21,227 nt of DNA from Acidimicrobiaceae bacterium (GTDB taxonomy: Bacteria > Actinomycetota > Acidimicrobiia > Acidimicrobiales > Microtrichaceae). Below are positions 7,623 through 21,134 of this stretch, piece by piece. Below the pieces are notes generated by a model that was not told the origin of the DNA, did no database searches, and saw only the letters and a program-made list of their open reading frames with translations. Within the stretch, counting starts at the first letter, position 1, and each line of letters begins with the position of its first letter. Position numbers and translations under genes: made by a program. The stretch lies in contig DORQ01000318.1 in assembly GCA_003514205.1 (NCBI GenBank), positions 3,241-24,467 on the forward strand, written 5' to 3'.

Positions 7623-8999
7623 ATGTTCGATCTCCAGCAGCTAGTGGCCGGCCCACACACCACTGCCCCCGCCACCCTCGTGGACAGCACCGATACCGAA
7701 CTCCTCGACACGATCCGCACCCTCGCCGCCACACGCCGCCACCTCGACATCACAGAAGCAGCAACCCTCGCAGAACTCCACACCCGCGGCACCTGCGACC
7801 GACTGTTCGGCATGACCACCCAAGCCTGGGTCGCCTACGAAACCGCAACCCCTGCCGCGCATACCAAGTCCCGCTGCAACACTGGCCTCAAACTCCGCAC
7901 TCACTTCGAAACGGTCCAACAAGCAGTACTCGAAGGCACCATCTCCTTCGAACATGCAGCAGTGATCTGCCGAGCGGCGAACCCTCGAATCATCAACGAC
8001 TTCGCCGCCATCCAAGACCAGATGATCAACATGGCCCAAGGCACCGTGTTCAACCGCTGGAAACAACAGATCAACGCCCTGGCGAACCTCATCGACCAAG
8101 ACGGCGGCCACAACCCCAACGACGATCTCAACACCAACCAGCTCTACCTCAACACCAACTTCGATGGCACCACACAGCTCAACGCCACGTTCACCGGCGG
8201 CATCGCCGAGACGCTGATCCAGACCATCGACCGAGTGGCCGACGAGCTCTTTCGCCAGTACGCCAACGACAACAACTACCTCATTCCTCCGGCACCAATC
8301 CCACCCCGGGCCACGCTTCGGGCACTCGCGTTCATTGAGATCTGCCGACGAGCCAACGCCAGCGAAACTTACGCTGAAGCAAACAACACCAATGGCGAGC
8401 CCTGCTCCGATAGTTCGGTCACCAGTTCTTCCGAGGAATCAAGCGAAGCCAACCCCCACAGCAATGGCCCTACTACTGGAACCGGCGGGCTCCGAAAATC
8501 ACGCCTCTACAGCCGCCCCACCCGACCCGAGATCACCCTCGTCATCAACGCCGCCGAACCTCACCGCGTGTACACTCCCCGAGGCCTCGAACTCACCGAC
8601 TCCTATATCCAAGCCCTCTGCTGCGACACCGACCTGTACCCCATCGTCGTCAACAGCCTCGGAGTCCCGCTCAACATGGGTCGCAAGATCAGAAGTGCGA
8701 ATACTCACCAGCGTCGGGCTCTCGCACTCAGAGACGGCAGTTGCGTCTTCCCCGGCTGCGAAGCACACCCAACCAACACCGACGCCCACCACATCAACCA
8801 ATGGACAAAAGACCTCGGCGAAACCAACGTCGAGACCATGGCCCTCTTTTGCCGCCATCATCACGGCATCATCCACCGCACCGGCTGGAACATACGCATC
8901 AACCGAAACGGCCACATAACCATCACCACACCAACCGGCCAACAACTCCCTGGCCAGCAACACCATCAGATCAAGCCGAACCCGCCAGACACCACCTAG
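7623..8999 (+). CDS. DUF222 domain-containing HNH endonuclease-like protein (13E12 repeat family)
   Basis: A 458-residue protein with the two-part layout of the actinobacterial 13E12 family. The N-terminal DUF222 helical domain (about residues 20-240) includes LAELHTRGTCDRLFGMTTQAWVA-type and FEHAAVICRA segments. The C-terminal HNH domain has CVFPGC (C374, C379), DAHHINQW (D387, H389, H390) and a final CRHHHGIIH (C410, H412-H414, H418). The paired cysteines suggest a structural Zn and the DAHH/N/H set a metal-dependent nuclease site. A low-complexity Ser/Asn/Glu linker separates the domains (about 260-300). The family is often multicopy and associated with mobile or repetitive elements, but its biological role is not established. 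The start at 7623 is supported by TACACT seven bases upstream. It is rich in Asn and Thr, with strong C-ending codon use, unlike the neighbouring short genes. Confidence 0.9.
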   Translation: MFDLQQLVAGPHTTAPATLVDSTDTELLDTIRTLAATRRHLDITEAATLAELHTRGTCDRLFGMTTQAWVAYETATPAAHTKSRCNTGLKLRTHFETVQQAVLEGTISFEHAAVICRAANPRIINDFAAIQDQMINMAQGTVFNRWKQQINALANLIDQDGGHNPNDDLNTNQLYLNTNFDGTTQLNATFTGGIAETLIQTIDRVADELFRQYANDNNYLIPPAPIPPRATLRALAFIEICRRANASETYAEANNTNGEPCSDSSVTSSSEESSEANPHSNGPTTGTGGLRKSRLYSRPTRPEITLVINAAEPHRVYTPRGLELTDSYIQALCCDTDLYPIVVNSLGVPLNMGRKIRSANTHQRRALALRDGSCVFPGCEAHPTNTDAHHINQWTKDLGETNVETMALFCRHHHGIIHRTGWNIRINRNGHITITTPTGQQLPGQQHHQIKPNPPDTT

Positions 9000-13371: not shown

Positions 13372-13542
13372 AGGTATTACCGTCCTCGAAACTTATGCTG
13401 AGTGCGCCGTTGGCTGGCCACGTCGACCTGTAGATTTCGACGAGCAACCCAATCAGGAAACCAGCCACCGAGCCACCCACCGGCCACGGAATCGTTGGCA
13501 CATTCCGCACAGCAACTTTGGACATCGAGACGGAGACGATCC

Positions 13543-14286
13543 ATGGAATCCCAGACACACTCACCGCAACTCCAGCGGTCTGCCCCCCTCCGCTCTCCGC
13601 GCCGCAGTCAACCACATGGCCGACGACCGCTGGGAGTGAAAGGCCTCGCAGTTGTGGCAATCTGCGCAACGCAATTGCTCGCGGCCTGCGCGGACGGAGA
13701 CACCTCCACCTCAACAGCAGCGTCAGACAGCAACACCAGCTCCACGGCCGCTCCCTCCACTACTGGGGCTCCCGCCGGTGCAGACTCTGCCAACACGTCA
13801 ACAACCGAACCAGCAACTGGCGCAGACAAGGACACCCAGGCGCCAGCCGAGTTGGCTGCATGGCAGACCATCGAACTCACCGATTCCTCAGGGGCCTCCT
13901 TCGCCTTCGCCGATCTGCTGGGAACACCCGTCTTTGTTGAGAACTTTGCCACCTGGTGTTCCAACTGCAAGAAGCAGCTCGTCGATACCCAAAAGGCAGC
14001 GAAAGCCGCAGGCGAGAATGCCGTGTTCGTCGCTCTCAGCGTAGAAACCGAACTCGACGCGAGCGACCTGGCTGACTACGCGGAAGAGAACGGCTTCAAG
14101 AACATCCGCTTCGTCGTCATGTCGCCGGAAATGCTTGGAGCGATCGACGACGCGTTCGGGAAGTCCTCGCTCAATCCGCCCGCAACACCCAAGTTCGTTA
14201 TCGATGCCACGGGCACCCCAGACAAACTCGAAACTGGTTTCGAGTCGCCCCAAGAAATTGCCGATCGACTTGCCGAAGTCGGGTGA
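13543..14286 (+). CDS. TlpA-like thioredoxin-fold lipoprotein
   Basis: A 247-residue exported thiol-disulfide protein. It has an Arg-rich n-region, a hydrophobic core (GLAVVAICATQ) and a lipobox L-L-A-A-C at C49. A 50-residue Ser/Thr/Ala-rich linker follows, then a thioredoxin domain with W138-C-S-N-C142 and a cis-Pro region NPPATPKFVI (P216). CSNC is an unusual CXXC pair; WCSNC in an AhpC/TSA-type fold is typical of TlpA/ResA-like membrane-tethered reductants that reduce disulfides in c-type cytochrome or copper-protein maturation. The start at 13543 is backed by GGAG seven bases upstream; a GTG at 13636 would give a shorter signal peptide and is possible. The next gene, 89 bases away, is a CcdA-like protein, its likely electron donor. 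Confidence 0.88.
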   Translation: MESQTHSPQLQRSAPLRSPRRSQPHGRRPLGVKGLAVVAICATQLLAACADGDTSTSTAASDSNTSSTAAPSTTGAPAGADSANTSTTEPATGADKDTQAPAELAAWQTIELTDSSGASFAFADLLGTPVFVENFATWCSNCKKQLVDTQKAAKAAGENAVFVALSVETELDASDLADYAEENGFKNIRFVVMSPEMLGAIDDAFGKSSLNPPATPKFVIDATGTPDKLETGFESPQEIADRLAEVG

Positions 14287-14375: not shown

Positions 14376-15041
14376 ATGAGTGAGTACTTCGAGGCTTTCC
14401 TTCTGGGGAACGCCGCCATCATTGGCAACGTGTGCATGCTTCCGCTCTACCCAGGCCTGTTCGTAATGCTTGCTTCACGGCTCGAGAATGGCGCGACGCC
14501 GAGGTCGGTTCGATGGATGGGAGCGCTGGTATTGGCAGGGGTCCTGACAGCAATGCTGAGCATCGGGTTTCTGCTGCACCTGCTACGAACTCCCTTTGCA
14601 GACGTGCTCCCCTACTCACTCCCGGTGATGTACGCGGCAGTCGCCATCCTTGGTGTCGCGATGCTCTTCGACAAGAACCCGTTTGTACGGATGCAGGTCG
14701 GCCCGATTACTTCGAGCGGCGGGGCGGCACTCCAGGCGTTCCTGTACGGAGTGTCGATCGGACCAATGACGCTGCCCTGCACTGGCCCCTTAATCATCTC
14801 AGCTTTCGTCCTTGGCGGAGTTCAAGGGTCGGGCGCTCTGATCGACGCGCTGACCTACTTCCTGTTCTTCGGACTCGGGTTCGGATGGCCACTCGTGCTG
14901 GCTCCGCTGCTCGCTGCTCCGGTTCAGCAACGCCTCACTCGACTCATCACGAAGAACCATCGCGCGGTCACGATCTTCTCCGGCCTCCTGCTCATCGCAG
15001 TTGCGATCGTCGGTTTCGTCAAGGACGTCGCTGGCAACTAG
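14376..15041 (+). CDS. CcdA-like cytochrome c biogenesis protein (DsbD transmembrane family)
   Basis: A 221-residue, about six-helix membrane protein. Two cysteines sit in the signature positions of the CcdA/DsbD transmembrane domain: VCMLPLYPGL (C20, in helix 1) and TLPCTGPL (C135, in helix 4). This pair accepts electrons from cytoplasmic thioredoxin and passes them to an external thioredoxin-fold protein. The C-x-LPLYPG and LPCTGP motifs, length and helix pattern all fit. It follows the WCSNC lipoprotein gene with an 89-base gap, so the two probably form a CcdA-TlpA relay. No CcsA or CcsB (ResB) partner is present, so cytochrome c maturation itself is only one possible destination. The ATG lacks a clear ribosome binding site. 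The gene converges on the radical SAM gene. Confidence 0.88.
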   Translation: MSEYFEAFLLGNAAIIGNVCMLPLYPGLFVMLASRLENGATPRSVRWMGALVLAGVLTAMLSIGFLLHLLRTPFADVLPYSLPVMYAAVAILGVAMLFDKNPFVRMQVGPITSSGGAALQAFLYGVSIGPMTLPCTGPLIISAFVLGGVQGSGALIDALTYFLFFGLGFGWPLVLAPLLAAPVQQRLTRLITKNHRAVTIFSGLLLIAVAIVGFVKDVAGN

Positions 15042-17494: not shown

Positions 17495-19729
17495 CTACGG
17501 CGTTGCTGGGTCAGCTGGCTTCGGAGGGAGCGTCGTGATCGTCGCGAAACACATCTCGTCCAAAGTTCCTTCTGCAAAGAAGATGTAGCGCAGTGGTCGG
17601 CCCGGTTGGAGGTTCCTGTCCCATGTGCAAGAGATTTGCAATTTGTCTCCAGGCTTCACACTCACCGGCTCAACTGGCTGATAATTCAGCTGCCAATTGA
17701 AACTCCAGCGAGGGATGTCCAGCAGCACCTTCTCCTCGGGAGTGCCCGGGTTGAGCTTCATCGTGAAACTCTTCCCGATGACGTGCATGTGACCGAGCAC
17801 ATCGACAATCGATGCCGGTTGACGCATGTTGAAGGTGCAAGTTGTGGTGGCTGTAATCCCATCGCTTTGTGCGGCAAGCGAGGCGGGGTCCGTGCCACAT
17901 ACTCGGTGAAGACCATTGGCCAACATCGAAGCATCGCCGAGACGTTCGGAGGTCTCAACCATGGCGGCGTCGCGATCACACAACGCCTCGGTGGAGCCAG
18001 CCGGACACGGAAGCTCGACTGGCCCAACCAGCTCACGAGTCCTCAGCTCTTGGATTCCAGGACGCTCATCCTCCAACGACAACGTCATCTGCGAGGAATC
18101 CTCGGGAGCAGCGGTCTCGTAGTGGTAGTGCATCTGAGAAATGAAATAGTCACCGGGGTTGAGCTTGAACCCAGTATCTGGCGCAAATCGCAGAGGGCGT
18201 TGGCCGGGAACCCAACCCGCAACGAGTGGCCCTCGAGGAACAGCTTGTCCCTGCCCAACTGGGTTCTCCTGTCCGGCCAAGCCCGAGGGCCCTGTCGCTC
18301 CAGACGGCCCAGCTGCGCCAGACGGCCCAGCTGCACTTGCCTGCCCGCCAGCGTTTCCACCACCGCCGAATCCTCCGGCACTACAGCTCCAGCCGGGCTT
18401 ACCATCAGCACCGTCTTTCGCATCGGCCGCGGCACGAGTGGCGGCATCCATCTTGTAGGTCAGAACATGGTGCACAACGGCCTTCGCATCAGGAGTGAAG
18501 TAGTAGCCCGTCATGTACTGGGTCGTCGTCAGCTTCGGGTCCATGATGAGACAGCGGTAGTCATCCTTGACGTCGGTGGAGCCCGCATACGGTTCGTCGA
18601 ACGTGATCGTGAGGTCGTCGTCGATCGTCACCATCGACGGGTCCTCCGCCGCTTTCAGCGGTTGGGATCCATCAACATCAAGCGGTGCCCCTGCCTTGGC
18701 CCAGTTGACGAAGGCCTCAATCTGGGCATCGCTGAGCCCTCGCGTATGTTGCAACGGCACGTTGGTTTGGGCCGCTGGCCACGGCGGCATGAACTTCGCC
18801 GTGGTGACAGTGGCCAATCCGTCTGCCACTGCCGCGGCATCATGAGCCTCGTTCAGTACCCAGAGATGCGACCCCATTTCACCCGACCCGTGACAGGACA
18901 CGCAGTTGGATTCCAGGATGGGCTTGATATCCCTTGAGTACGAAGGAACACCAGCGAGTTGGGCGGTGACCTGCTTTGAGCCAGGATCCTCCGAGAGGGC
19001 CTTCGGTGCCTCGAAGGAGTCTCCACTCCTGGCGAGGATCTTCAATTCGAGTGTGGCGGTATCCTTCGCCGTTACCAGGCCCGCGAGCGCAACCGGGCCA
19101 ATCTTGAACTCGCTGAGGGTCAGCGTGGTGCTCGCTGTCAGGCGGAGCTGATCTCCCTCCCACTCTCCGTTCACATCGAAGGTGACTGGGTTCGTCACAT
19201 CGTGAACCTTCAGGTCGCCGACGAGAGTGAACTGCGTCTTCGTTCCCTGCTCGAATCGTTTTGGTGCTCCAGAGAGCTTGACATCGCTGAGCCTCGCGAT
19301 CGGGTACTTCGTGGACTCCAAATAGTTGGCCCGGATCTGGCGATCTCGAAGTCGGTTATCACTTGTCAATTGCTCAACATCGACGAGGATTTCGCCGACG
19401 CGCGAGTCGGCTGCTCGTTCGGTGTTCAGCGCAATCTCTCCAGACATGGCCTGGGTGACCAGGGTTGCCTTGTCCACAGAACTACCGACGAGTTCCTCCT
19501 CGACCACAACCGTTGCGCTCGACTGGTTCGGATCGATACGGAAGAGCAACTCGTCGCTGCCGAGCTGACCCAACGGCTTTGCCTGAGGCACGGCATCACC
19601 GACTGGCGTGTCGGCGGTGAGCGCGACTTTCACTACATCGCGAGTCAGGTAGAGCGCGCCAGCGACCAAAAGGAGCGGAACAGCACTGCCGATCGGATGC
19701 CTCTTTACAAACGAGATGACGTTGCTCAC
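17495..19729 (-). CDS. YceI domain - cytochrome c-like - copper type II monooxygenase-like fusion, secreted
   Basis: A 744-residue protein with an N-terminal signal anchor at 12-30. Residues about 60-235 form a YceI domain (FRIDPNQSSATVVVEEELVG, FTLVGDLKVHDVTNPV), a lipocalin-like barrel that binds isoprenoid lipids in relatives. Residues about 262-352 are a cytochrome c-like domain: C276-V-S-C279-H280 binds haem, with M314 in FMPPWP as the probable second ligand. Residues about 365-735 resemble copper type II ascorbate-dependent monooxygenases: VVHHVLTY (H420, H421), MHYHYE (H534, H536), GHMHVIG (H647, H649) and DEMCF (M726) fit the two copper sites of PHM/DBH enzymes. A Gly/Ala/Pro/Ser-rich insert with GPSGAAGPSGATGPSG at 468-483 interrupts the copper domain. 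A GTG start is supported by GGGGGAG five bases upstream. It probably hydroxylates an unknown substrate outside the membrane. Confidence 0.88.
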   Translation of the reverse strand: MSNVISFVKRHPIGSAVPLLLVAGALYLTRDVVKVALTADTPVGDAVPQAKPLGQLGSDELLFRIDPNQSSATVVVEEELVGSSVDKATLVTQAMSGEIALNTERAADSRVGEILVDVEQLTSDNRLRDRQIRANYLESTKYPIARLSDVKLSGAPKRFEQGTKTQFTLVGDLKVHDVTNPVTFDVNGEWEGDQLRLTASTTLTLSEFKIGPVALAGLVTAKDTATLELKILARSGDSFEAPKALSEDPGSKQVTAQLAGVPSYSRDIKPILESNCVSCHGSGEMGSHLWVLNEAHDAAAVADGLATVTTAKFMPPWPAAQTNVPLQHTRGLSDAQIEAFVNWAKAGAPLDVDGSQPLKAAEDPSMVTIDDDLTITFDEPYAGSTDVKDDYRCLIMDPKLTTTQYMTGYYFTPDAKAVVHHVLTYKMDAATRAAADAKDGADGKPGWSCSAGGFGGGGNAGGQASAAGPSGAAGPSGATGPSGLAGQENPVGQGQAVPRGPLVAGWVPGQRPLRFAPDTGFKLNPGDYFISQMHYHYETAAPEDSSQMTLSLEDERPGIQELRTRELVGPVELPCPAGSTEALCDRDAAMVETSERLGDASMLANGLHRVCGTDPASLAAQSDGITATTTCTFNMRQPASIVDVLGHMHVIGKSFTMKLNPGTPEEKVLLDIPRWSFNWQLNYQPVEPVSVKPGDKLQISCTWDRNLQPGRPLRYIFFAEGTLDEMCFATITTLPPKPADPATP
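18275..18343 (-). repeat. Short Gly-X-Y (collagen-like) coding repeat in the fusion protein
   Basis: This stretch encodes Ala-Gly-Pro-Ser-Gly-Ala repeated with small changes (GPSGAA, GPSGAT, GPSGLA), preceded by a Gly-rich GGFGGGGNAGG segment. At DNA level, an 18-bp unit containing CAGACGGCCCAGCTGC is repeated on the plus strand. It is a low-complexity loop between the first and second copper-binding halves. Confidence 0.7.
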
Positions 19730-19852: not shown

Positions 19853-21079
19853 CTATTCCTCGTGGCGGTAGGTCACAGCACCTGGCGCGAAGGCTGAGAC
19901 GACACCGCTTCCCAGCCCGACGGGTACTGGATCCAGCCCCGAGCGGTAGCGAAGCTCCGCGGTGACGAAGTGATGTGTAATTGGCCAGACGTCGGGCGAG
20001 AGTTTGTTTGGCGGCACGATGCACCCGTTCTGGGCGAGGTTGATCACCGAGTCCGGAAGAAAGAGCCCGCCAGACTGAGCAAGCCCGATCAGTCCACCCT
20101 CTGGGCGACCGATCTCGCAGATGTCAGTCACTGCGTTGTTATGACCCGCACCAGAAATCACCACGATCTTCCGCTCGCCGGCGCTGTAGCGATACCCGTT
20201 TTCAACGGAGGGCAACTGCGCCACGCCATCAATCTCGCCGGTCAGCCACATCACGTTCTTTGAGGCGTTTCCGAGAGCTGCAGGGACCTTTGGCGATGGG
20301 TTGAAGATAGTTGGCGTGAGGTTCACCCCTGCGCTCAGCACAATCCACGACTGCACATCAGTTCTGGTGCCCGCAAGTTCGGTGGATTGAAACCCGCCAG
20401 CGGAGTGCCCGATCGGAAACAATCGACTCGTATCGATCGCTCCAGCAAGCGGACCCGAAGCGTTTGCCGCTTCGATTGCCGTCATTGCCAAGTCGGTAAT
20501 CGCCGCGTTGGATTTGGCGGGCGCCGGGGCCGTTCCGAGGAGCGACTGAAGACCGCGTTCGAAATAGTCGGGCGACATCACCACAAAGCCCCAGGAGGCG
20601 AGGTGCGAGGTGAGGGTTGAGGACTGCGACCGATACGACATGGTGCCGTGACTAAACAGGACCAACGGGAACGGCCCGGCAGTGCTGACCGGCAGAGCAC
20701 GCACGGCTCCGGTAACAAATGGTGGGTTGACATTGGGTGCCAACAGGGCCGAGAGTTCCGGCGAGAGAAAGTCGCGAATGTGATACACCTCAGGAGCGAG
20801 GCCAACAGCGGAGGCCGGACTCGCTGGATACCAAATCTCCATGTCGCGACCGGGCTCAACTTCGACGGTGGTGACGCCCACCGCGAAGGGTCCTCGCTCG
20901 GCGTAAACAGCCTCGGAGGGTTGCTGGCCAAGGTCGGGATCGAAACCACCGTCCTTCGCTGGTGGGACCGGAGGCGGCTCTGAGGCGCATGCACCGCCGA
21001 GGAATCCAAGAAACACGACGGCAGCAGCCATCTTGCGTGCCAGTCTTCGGTCCGTCCTGAAGTTGTGTGTAGCCCTCAT
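19853..21079 (-). CDS. Alpha/beta-hydrolase lipoprotein (PAF-acetylhydrolase/chlorophyllase-like)
   Basis: A 408-residue exported hydrolase. Its signal peptide (RRLARKMAAAVVFLGFLGG) ends in a lipobox L-G-G-A-C (C31), followed by a Pro-rich linker. The fold is seen in PLVLFSHGT (oxyanion-hole region, H144), the nucleophile elbow IGHSAGG (S226), an acid candidate TGEIDG (D284) and the catalytic His in ISGAGHNN (H313). This matches esterases related to platelet-activating-factor acetylhydrolase and chlorophyllase, which cleave short ester bonds in lipids or polyesters. The start at 21079 (MRATHNF) has GGGGGAG nine bases upstream; ATG 21097 and ATG 21031 are possible. It shares orientation with the fusion gene downstream, but a hairpin lies between. 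Confidence 0.85.
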   Translation of the reverse strand: MRATHNFRTDRRLARKMAAAVVFLGFLGGACASEPPPVPPAKDGGFDPDLGQQPSEAVYAERGPFAVGVTTVEVEPGRDMEIWYPASPASAVGLAPEVYHIRDFLSPELSALLAPNVNPPFVTGAVRALPVSTAGPFPLVLFSHGTMSYRSQSSTLTSHLASWGFVVMSPDYFERGLQSLLGTAPAPAKSNAAITDLAMTAIEAANASGPLAGAIDTSRLFPIGHSAGGFQSTELAGTRTDVQSWIVLSAGVNLTPTIFNPSPKVPAALGNASKNVMWLTGEIDGVAQLPSVENGYRYSAGERKIVVISGAGHNNAVTDICEIGRPEGGLIGLAQSGGLFLPDSVINLAQNGCIVPPNKLSPDVWPITHHFVTAELRYRSGLDPVPVGLGSGVVSAFAPGAVTYRHEE

Positions 21080-21134
21080 TGTCCTGCGCTCCCCCATTCG
21101 CCCGTGCGTTCCACCCGCTCAAGGTGCTTGGACG

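Follow-up and report, generated by a model that had tools for sequence, protein, structure and literature searches.

A single minus-strand gene in the window (the whole stretch of DNA analyzed here, 21,227 nucleotides) encodes a YceI barrel, a c-type haem domain, and a two-half PHM/DBH-type copper monooxygenase in one chain. Pfam and family profiles agree on this composition, which an earlier note on the same DNA had proposed. As far as our searches show, the fusion is a real, conserved, and apparently undescribed combination of known parts: in literature searches that covered the titles and abstract starts of the papers listed, with most subscription journals outside their coverage, we found no report of YceI, cytochrome c, and a copper monooxygenase fused together. 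By its domains and ligand set, the protein is a PHM/DBH-type (copper type II) monooxygenase, with hydroxylase activity and copper content predicted. We propose, with a confidence somewhat short of even, that it may act as a copper hydroxylase outside the cytoplasm, associated with the membrane and supplied with electrons from within its own chain, including by a quinol held in the barrel. Papers are cited by PMC number, and what is drawn from them is limited to the portions of text accessible.

Organization of the gene and its product

The features of the gene are as follows (window coordinates; rows are those of the family alignment described below).

17495..19729, minus strand: YceI - cytochrome c - Cu monooxygenase fusion gene; complete ORF, 744 aa
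19643..19696, minus strand: hydrophobic stretch near the N terminus (residues 12-29); mean Kyte-Doolittle value of 1.69 for these 18 residues
19037..19543, minus strand: YceI barrel domain, residues 63-231; Pfam, and profile against solved YceI structures
18674..18949, minus strand: c-type cytochrome domain, residues 261-352; Pfam (below cut-off) and family profile
18890..18904, minus strand: CVSCH motif for haem attachment (residues 276-280); both cysteines and the histidine present in 75/75 rows with a letter
18788..18790, minus strand: M314 (in MPPWP), presumed axial haem ligand; 76/76 rows
18098..18619, minus strand: copper domain 1 (CuH domain), residues 371-544; family profiles
18467..18472, minus strand: H420-H421, equivalents of PHM H107/H108 (CuH); conservation and profile alignment
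18300..18334, minus strand: GPSG repeat of the collagen-like type within copper domain 1; 1.9 copies of an 18-bp unit
18128..18130, minus strand: H534, equivalent of PHM H172 (CuH); conservation and profile alignment
17525..18034, minus strand: copper domain 2 (CuM domain), residues 566-735; Pfam and family profiles
17783..17791, minus strand: H647-M-H649, equivalents of DBH H412/H414 (CuM); conservation and profile alignment
17552..17554, minus strand: M726 in the DEMC motif, corresponding to M314 in PHM and M487 in DBH (CuM); conservation and profile alignment

The reading frame starts with GTG (19727-19729), closely preceded by a GGGGGAG run, and stops at 17495-17497; a scan for sigma-70-type promoters found 0 against 0.8 expected. 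Of the 68 database proteins that show the full architecture and have no fewer than 30 residues ahead of the barrel, 62 also carry a hydrophobic N-terminal segment scoring at least 1.6. The prediction that the fusion protein is exported rests on this segment (residues 12-29), which may be a membrane anchor or a signal. The linkers are short and even, with 20 to 31 residues from barrel to haem domain and 16 to 37 from haem to copper domain, and the mean pairwise identity of the barrel is 0.44, versus 0.42 and 0.48 for the two copper domains.

The copper core and its ligands

Conservation was read from a family alignment of the window protein with 75 of its 120 database homologues (76 rows, some of them fragments). 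Since the closest homologue is the window protein itself except for one substitution and one 6-residue repeat unit, the rows count as 75 at most. The GPSG repeat varies in length, as this near-identical protein lacks one 6-aa unit.

Pfam places Cu2_monoox_C at residues 616-729 (E 1e-5, over the cut-off) and, from the single sequence, the N-terminal Cu2_monooxygen domain at residues 502-537 (E 0.0072, below the cut-off). Single-sequence searches of solved structures with the whole protein, the YceI part, or the C-terminal part gave chance or marginal matches only, and profiles were therefore needed. Against the PDB, the 76-row profile matched DBH (4zel, 6.5e-5) and PHM (1yjk, 4.6e-4) by whole-sequence score only, while a profile of 30 relatives of simpler architecture reached DBH at 1.1e-8 and PHM at 1.8e-8, the weaker half of each match (C-terminal in PHM, N-terminal in DBH) scoring about 7 bits alone. 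In the 30-relative profile, the VHH, QxHY, and DEMC motifs align on those of PHM, and HMH aligns on the HTH of DBH, PHM's own HxH lying outside the displayed profile alignment. The 76-row profile aligns the last motif of DBH in a shifted register, and the EMC-to-EMC match of the 30-relative profile was adopted.

The six predicted copper ligands are invariant: H420, H421, and H534 occur in 76/76 rows, H647, H649, and M726 occur in 75/75 (one gap), and all six are kept in 30/30 relatives of simpler architecture. We take M314, the PHM residue matched by M726, to be the copper-ligand methionine of that enzyme. In the accessible text on PHM, H107, H108, and H172 are the ligands at CuH, and H242 and H244 are also named at a copper (PMC6123673); the ligands given for DBH are H262, H263, and H333 together with H412, H414, and M487 (PMC4846438). 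Four cysteines of the fusion (C393, C449, C701, and C727) are conserved as well, and the equivalent cysteines in the related profile align with cysteines of PHM and DBH. The core disulfides described for DBH, C232-C283 and C466-C488 (PMC4846438), thus have aligned counterparts in the fusion, where the bonds themselves are predicted. The residues that the earlier note had singled out held up for the haem (C276, C279, H280, and M314) and for the six copper ligands; H536, which it had added to the copper set, did not. This position is His in 62 and Asn in 14 of the 76 rows, and Asn in 18/30 simpler relatives, and a residue so variable is therefore ruled out as a ligand.

PHM anchors its peptide substrate by an arginine two residues before the first CuM histidine and by an asparagine and a tyrosine two and four residues after the CuM methionine. 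In the family, no Arg occurs at position 645 in 75 rows, position 728 is F, I, Y, or M, and position 730 is T, S, or A, with one R. Peptide amidation, the reaction of PHM proper, was dropped as a candidate function because these anchoring residues are absent.

The haem domain and the YceI barrel

The haem domain combines the CXXCH motif and the distal methionine by which c-type cytochromes are recognized, and M314 would be the axial ligand. Its cytochrome CBB3 Pfam match in the window protein (residues 268-319, E 5.5e-4) stays below the cut-off, with 20.6 bits against 27 for PF13442 and 16.7 against 21.3 for PF00034, values to be read against a detection threshold and not as a trait of the protein. 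In precomputed Pfam assignments, PF13442 is present in some relatives.

The barrel was expected at residues 60-235 from the earlier reading, and Pfam finds YceI at 63-231 with an E value of 7.5e-18 (65.8 bits against a cut-off of 23.7). The profile of the 76-row alignment also matches YceI structures in the PDB (1y0g, 1.9e-7). A homologue search with the YceI part alone returned the window's own protein and one other, and the host genome contains three further YceI matches besides the fusion. In a tree built from barrels only, 83 fused barrels fall on one side of a branch and 4 free barrels of the class on the other; with the bootstrap not settled and the free barrels found with a profile built from fused ones, a separation of fused from free barrels is suggestive only.

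Most YceI structures contain an isoprenoid, the usual ones being octaprenyl phosphate, octaprenylphenol, and ubiquinone-8, according to the accessible part of PMC9113575. The same source describes a Neisseria YceI protein that copurifies with ubiquinone-8, and it states that BcnA binds other hydrophobic compounds. Ubiquinone-8 in YceI barrels is likewise mentioned in PMC8981238 and PMC10154616.

Distribution and history of the architecture

All four domain models are present in 72 of the 120 database homologues; 1 lacks the last copper domain, and 47, some of them fragments, are haem-copper proteins without YceI, in line with the earlier statement that haem-before-copper proteins exist elsewhere. 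The best 80 of the 273 matching genome stretches, a set biased toward long matches, comprise 75 with all four models, 4 without YceI, and 1 without the last domain, at a contig end. Within the class, 251 of 395 genomes match the family profile at 1e-10 when no more than two candidates per genome are scored. Among the matches listed, the full-length fusion occurs in at least 30 genomes, haem-copper proteins in at least 11, and copper-only proteins in at least 14 (one at a contig edge), the others listed being the YceI part only. A search of 396 genomes of the phylum, which does not give the share lying outside the class, returned 17 matches at 1e-30, 16 of them in the class (one being the YceI part only) and one outside, a 208-aa copper fragment.

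The architecture, called unusual in the earlier note, was found almost exclusively in one class, apparently Acidimicrobiia; it is no one-off and characterizes a conserved family. In a quick tree, the window row groups with a record of Microthrixaceae, a family of Acidimicrobiia. Where the proteins are named, the names are mostly "YceI family protein" or "polyisoprenoid-binding protein YceI" (dozens of proteins). Family genes inside the acidimicrobial tree also come from metagenome bins labelled Acidobacteria (L039) and Actinomyces (L034), and two bins labelled Bifidobacterium breve (L017 and L019) encode proteins 93-94% identical to that of IMCC26207; these four bins are probably mislabelled. 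Tandem pairs were seen twice, as two adjacent full-length fusions in L123 and two adjacent copper-only genes in L110. A search of the host genome with PF01082 gave no match, as in 14/14 control genomes, and is therefore uninformative.

In the quick tree (152 rows left from 242 after a 75% identity filter), copper-only genes form one clade, and explaining the distribution of YceI takes 7 changes, of which starred branches force 4; two YceI rows (P0062 and P0063) lie separately at a fork left open. A careful tree was built from 68 selected rows, with four long rows omitted and the YceI and distant rows partly sampled at random. In it, 3 haem-copper and 6 copper-only rows branch beside a group formed by all 33 YceI and 16 haem-copper rows; this group has a support of 95/67, and 5 YceI changes are forced. 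With roots placed at midpoints, the simplest reading suggested by these trees is that an older haem-copper enzyme gained the barrel once and that the barrel was then lost repeatedly.

Whenever a copper protein among those scored carried YceI, it also carried the cytochrome; the counts behind this include duplicates among loci (for instance, the window and L081, or L084 and L124). The 18 copper-only genes, which have no YceI, form one branch, and this co-occurrence is weak evidence because it comes close to a single event. Nearly all of the copper-only PHM/DBH-like genes (L094-L110) belong to one family of the same order (f5, with L097 in f23). Family-profile searches of the fetched stretches found neither YceI nor a cytochrome gene of the family type next to these genes. 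The result was the same next to the barrel-less relatives; other kinds of cytochrome would escape such searches.

Genomic context

Upstream sequence of 3.5 kb or more is available at 58 genome loci, and at 19 of these, ccm genes precede the fusion gene on the same strand. The set from ccmA to ccmH is complete in 14 of these 19 loci, the other 5 being cut by the contig start, and ccmH ends 31 to 1252 bases ahead of the fusion ORF as called; the ORF lying between the two in L049 encodes a TPR protein. In L053, Pfam confirmed CcmB, CcmC, CcmE, CcmF, and CcmH, and NCBIfam confirmed CcmA. The ccm-linked loci make up one part of the family, a branch other than that of the window's gene. In the host genome, ccmA, ccmB, ccmC, and ccmE lie on a 4.6-kb contig (C307); ccmF was not seen in the host, and this contig ends soon after ccmE. 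Many Actinomycetota use System II for haem maturation; System I (Ccm) genes were observed in Acidimicrobiia at the 19 loci, which lie between L041 and L075, and at L127. The host genome also contains MenD and, in two pieces, MenA over the cut-off, as well as three matches to the cytochrome b561 family, of which one just reaches the cut-off and two fall short of it.

In the window, an alpha/beta hydrolase gene (PAF-AH/chlorophyllase/PETase-like; 19853-21097, minus strand) lies 123 nt upstream of the fusion gene on the same strand. The two genes may possibly form an operon, and the N terminus of the hydrolase reads as lipoprotein-like. A TlpA-like thioredoxin gene (13402-14286, plus strand) is followed by one for a CcdA-like membrane protein (14376-15041, plus strand), the latter assigned by reading of the sequence, with no Pfam match over the cut-off; this pair could have a part in extracytoplasmic haem or disulfide chemistry. 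At E 1e-8, the hydrolase, 2OG-Fe oxygenase, radical SAM, TlpA, CcdA-like, and FtsX-like neighbors had no match in the fetched related loci, where PhoD was found in 6 and the DUF222 and fatty-acid-hydroxylase proteins in 1 each. Since the neighbors are rarely kept, no pathway was built on them. In L041, a 334-aa frame without Pfam or NCBIfam match (7922-8923, minus strand) lies beside the fusion gene in convergent orientation; similar frames occur in 10 related loci, in the same 10 of which the opposite strand is also open, so that either strand may be the coding one.

A proposed electron path and its alternatives

DBH makes noradrenaline, and the animal PHM and DBH enzymes take their electrons from vitamin C (ascorbate). 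To our knowledge, bacteria are generally without ascorbate; it may work in vitro, but these bacteria are unlikely to use it as their natural donor. Transfer from menaquinol to haem c and on to copper is downhill by textbook potentials. In PHM, each copper takes one reducing equivalent from ascorbate (PMC6123673, in the part accessible).

In the mechanism that we propose, Ccm would attach the haem outside the membrane, the haem would pass single electrons to CuH and then to CuM, and CuM would bind O2 and hydroxylate a substrate. The least certain steps concern the YceI barrel, which would draw an isoprenoid quinol (menaquinol in the host) from the membrane and reduce the haem, the barrel-held quinol replacing the ascorbate of the animal enzymes. 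In its most specific form, that of a single-chain, quinol-powered copper hydroxylase with the barrel as an on-board menaquinol holder and no ascorbate, the proposal is tentative, and we rate it as less likely than not. The overall mechanism is favored by the conserved copper ligands and core cysteines, the invariant haem motif and methionine, the ccm genes linked to part of the family, the ccm, MenD, and MenA genes of the host, the ubiquinone-8 reported in YceI barrels, and the example of Cbp2D. The co-occurrence of barrel and haem, the even linkers, and the equal conservation of the domains fit a quinol path without proving it. Several observations count against the proposal. The same class contains haem-copper relatives that lack YceI, and the core can thus do without the barrel; YceI structures also contain octaprenyl phosphate or octaprenylphenol, and BcnA binds other hydrophobic compounds; Cbp2D/E are hypothesized to have a role beyond electron transfer (PMC12542752); the ccm linkage lies in another branch; and the cytochrome match of the window protein lies below the Pfam cut-off.

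In the earlier note, the barrel presents a hydrophobic substrate, the haem feeds electrons, and the two-copper site hydroxylates. Spelled out further, the barrel would capture a lipid, isoprenoid, or hydrocarbon compound, and the haem would be fed by a separate donor. We regard this as somewhat unlikely, and the sequence itself gives no sign of a substrate-presenting barrel. YceI barrels bind several isoprenoids and other hydrophobic compounds, as far as the accessible text of PMC9113575 goes, and barrel-less relatives keep haem and copper, as would be expected if the barrel merely widened substrate access. However, the papers listed in our literature searches, read by title and abstract start, gave no YceI barrel that hands a substrate to an oxygenase, YceI was never found with a copper core lacking haem (few independent events), and the haem sits between barrel and copper in the chain, in the order of an electron path, which is weak evidence. 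A path from quinol to haem to CuH to CuM seems to us at least as likely as a substrate-presenting barrel because of the ubiquinone-8 in YceI barrels and the precedent of Cbp2D discussed below.

In another alternative, the barrel is only a membrane tether or lipid sensor, the haem being fed by a separate membrane cytochrome of the bc1 or b561 type and the substrate diffusing in. The conservation of the barrel, which equals that of the catalytic domains and exceeds what a mere spacer should show, speaks against this idea. The hydrophobic N terminus, the repeated loss of YceI with haem and copper retained, and the b561-family matches of the host (one just at the cut-off, two below) agree with this idea, which we consider unlikely all the same. 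It is quite improbable, in our judgment, that the copper part is an oxidase, a peroxide producer, or a radical scavenger, resembling the system of YceI lipocalin and cytochrome b561 that detoxifies lipid peroxyl radicals in Gram-negatives (PMC9113575, in the part accessible). Such a role would suit a bacterial family for which we found no substrate on record and from which PHM's substrate-anchoring residues are absent, but the six ligands of two separate copper sites, present in every row with a letter and in 30/30 simpler relatives, are the pattern of PHM and DBH. A protein that unites the barrel with the haem and the dicopper site allows two questions, the reductant of bacterial PHM/DBH-like enzymes and the role of quinone in YceI barrels, to be tested together, and it offers a testable function for dozens of proteins now named mostly after YceI.

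Comparison with known systems

PHM and DBH (PF01082/PF03712) share with the fusion the two-domain copper core, the six ligands, and the core disulfide cysteines. The window protein differs from them in being bacterial and in carrying cytochrome c and YceI ahead of the core, where DBH has a DOMON domain (PMC4846438, in the part accessible). The bacterial cytochrome c - Cu monooxygenases without YceI have the haem-copper core in common with the fusion, and for many of them about 63-66% of the query is matched; some carry redoxin, EF-hand, or TPR domains, whereas the fusion has YceI. The YceI lipocalins (Escherichia coli YceI, Thermus thermophilus TT1927b, BcnA, and GNA1030) have the barrel domain in common with the fusion but are stand-alone proteins, while the window barrel is fused to haem and copper domains.

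The combination of barrel and haem has a counterpart in Cellvibrio japonicus, whose Cbp2D, with an X158 YceI-type domain and c-type cytochromes, was proposed to feed a copper LPMO (PMC8981238). When isolated, the haem domain of Cbp2D, with a potential of about 0.2 V, is a slow reductant of LPMOs (PMC8981238 and PMC10916295), a result repeated in a review (PMC10154616), and in a 2025 Cellvibrio paper, Cbp2D/E are hypothesized to do more than transfer electrons to the LPMO (PMC12542752). According to the accessible parts of these sources, X158 is present in both Cbp2D and Cbp2E, the c-type cytochromes belong to Cbp2D, and a cellulose-binding module is carried. A carbohydrate-binding module gave no Pfam match up to E 1 in the window protein, and membership in the Cbp2D/E family was dropped. 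Judging from the same portions of text, Cbp2D resembles the fusion in being an exported protein with both a YceI-type domain and cytochrome c domains. The Cellvibrio copper enzyme, however, is an LPMO, different in kind and on a chain of its own, whereas the window protein includes a PHM/DBH-type enzyme in the same chain. If the tentative quinol-powered reading is true, the fusion would be the one-chain counterpart of the Cellvibrio YceI-cytochrome-LPMO arrangement, with a different copper enzyme.
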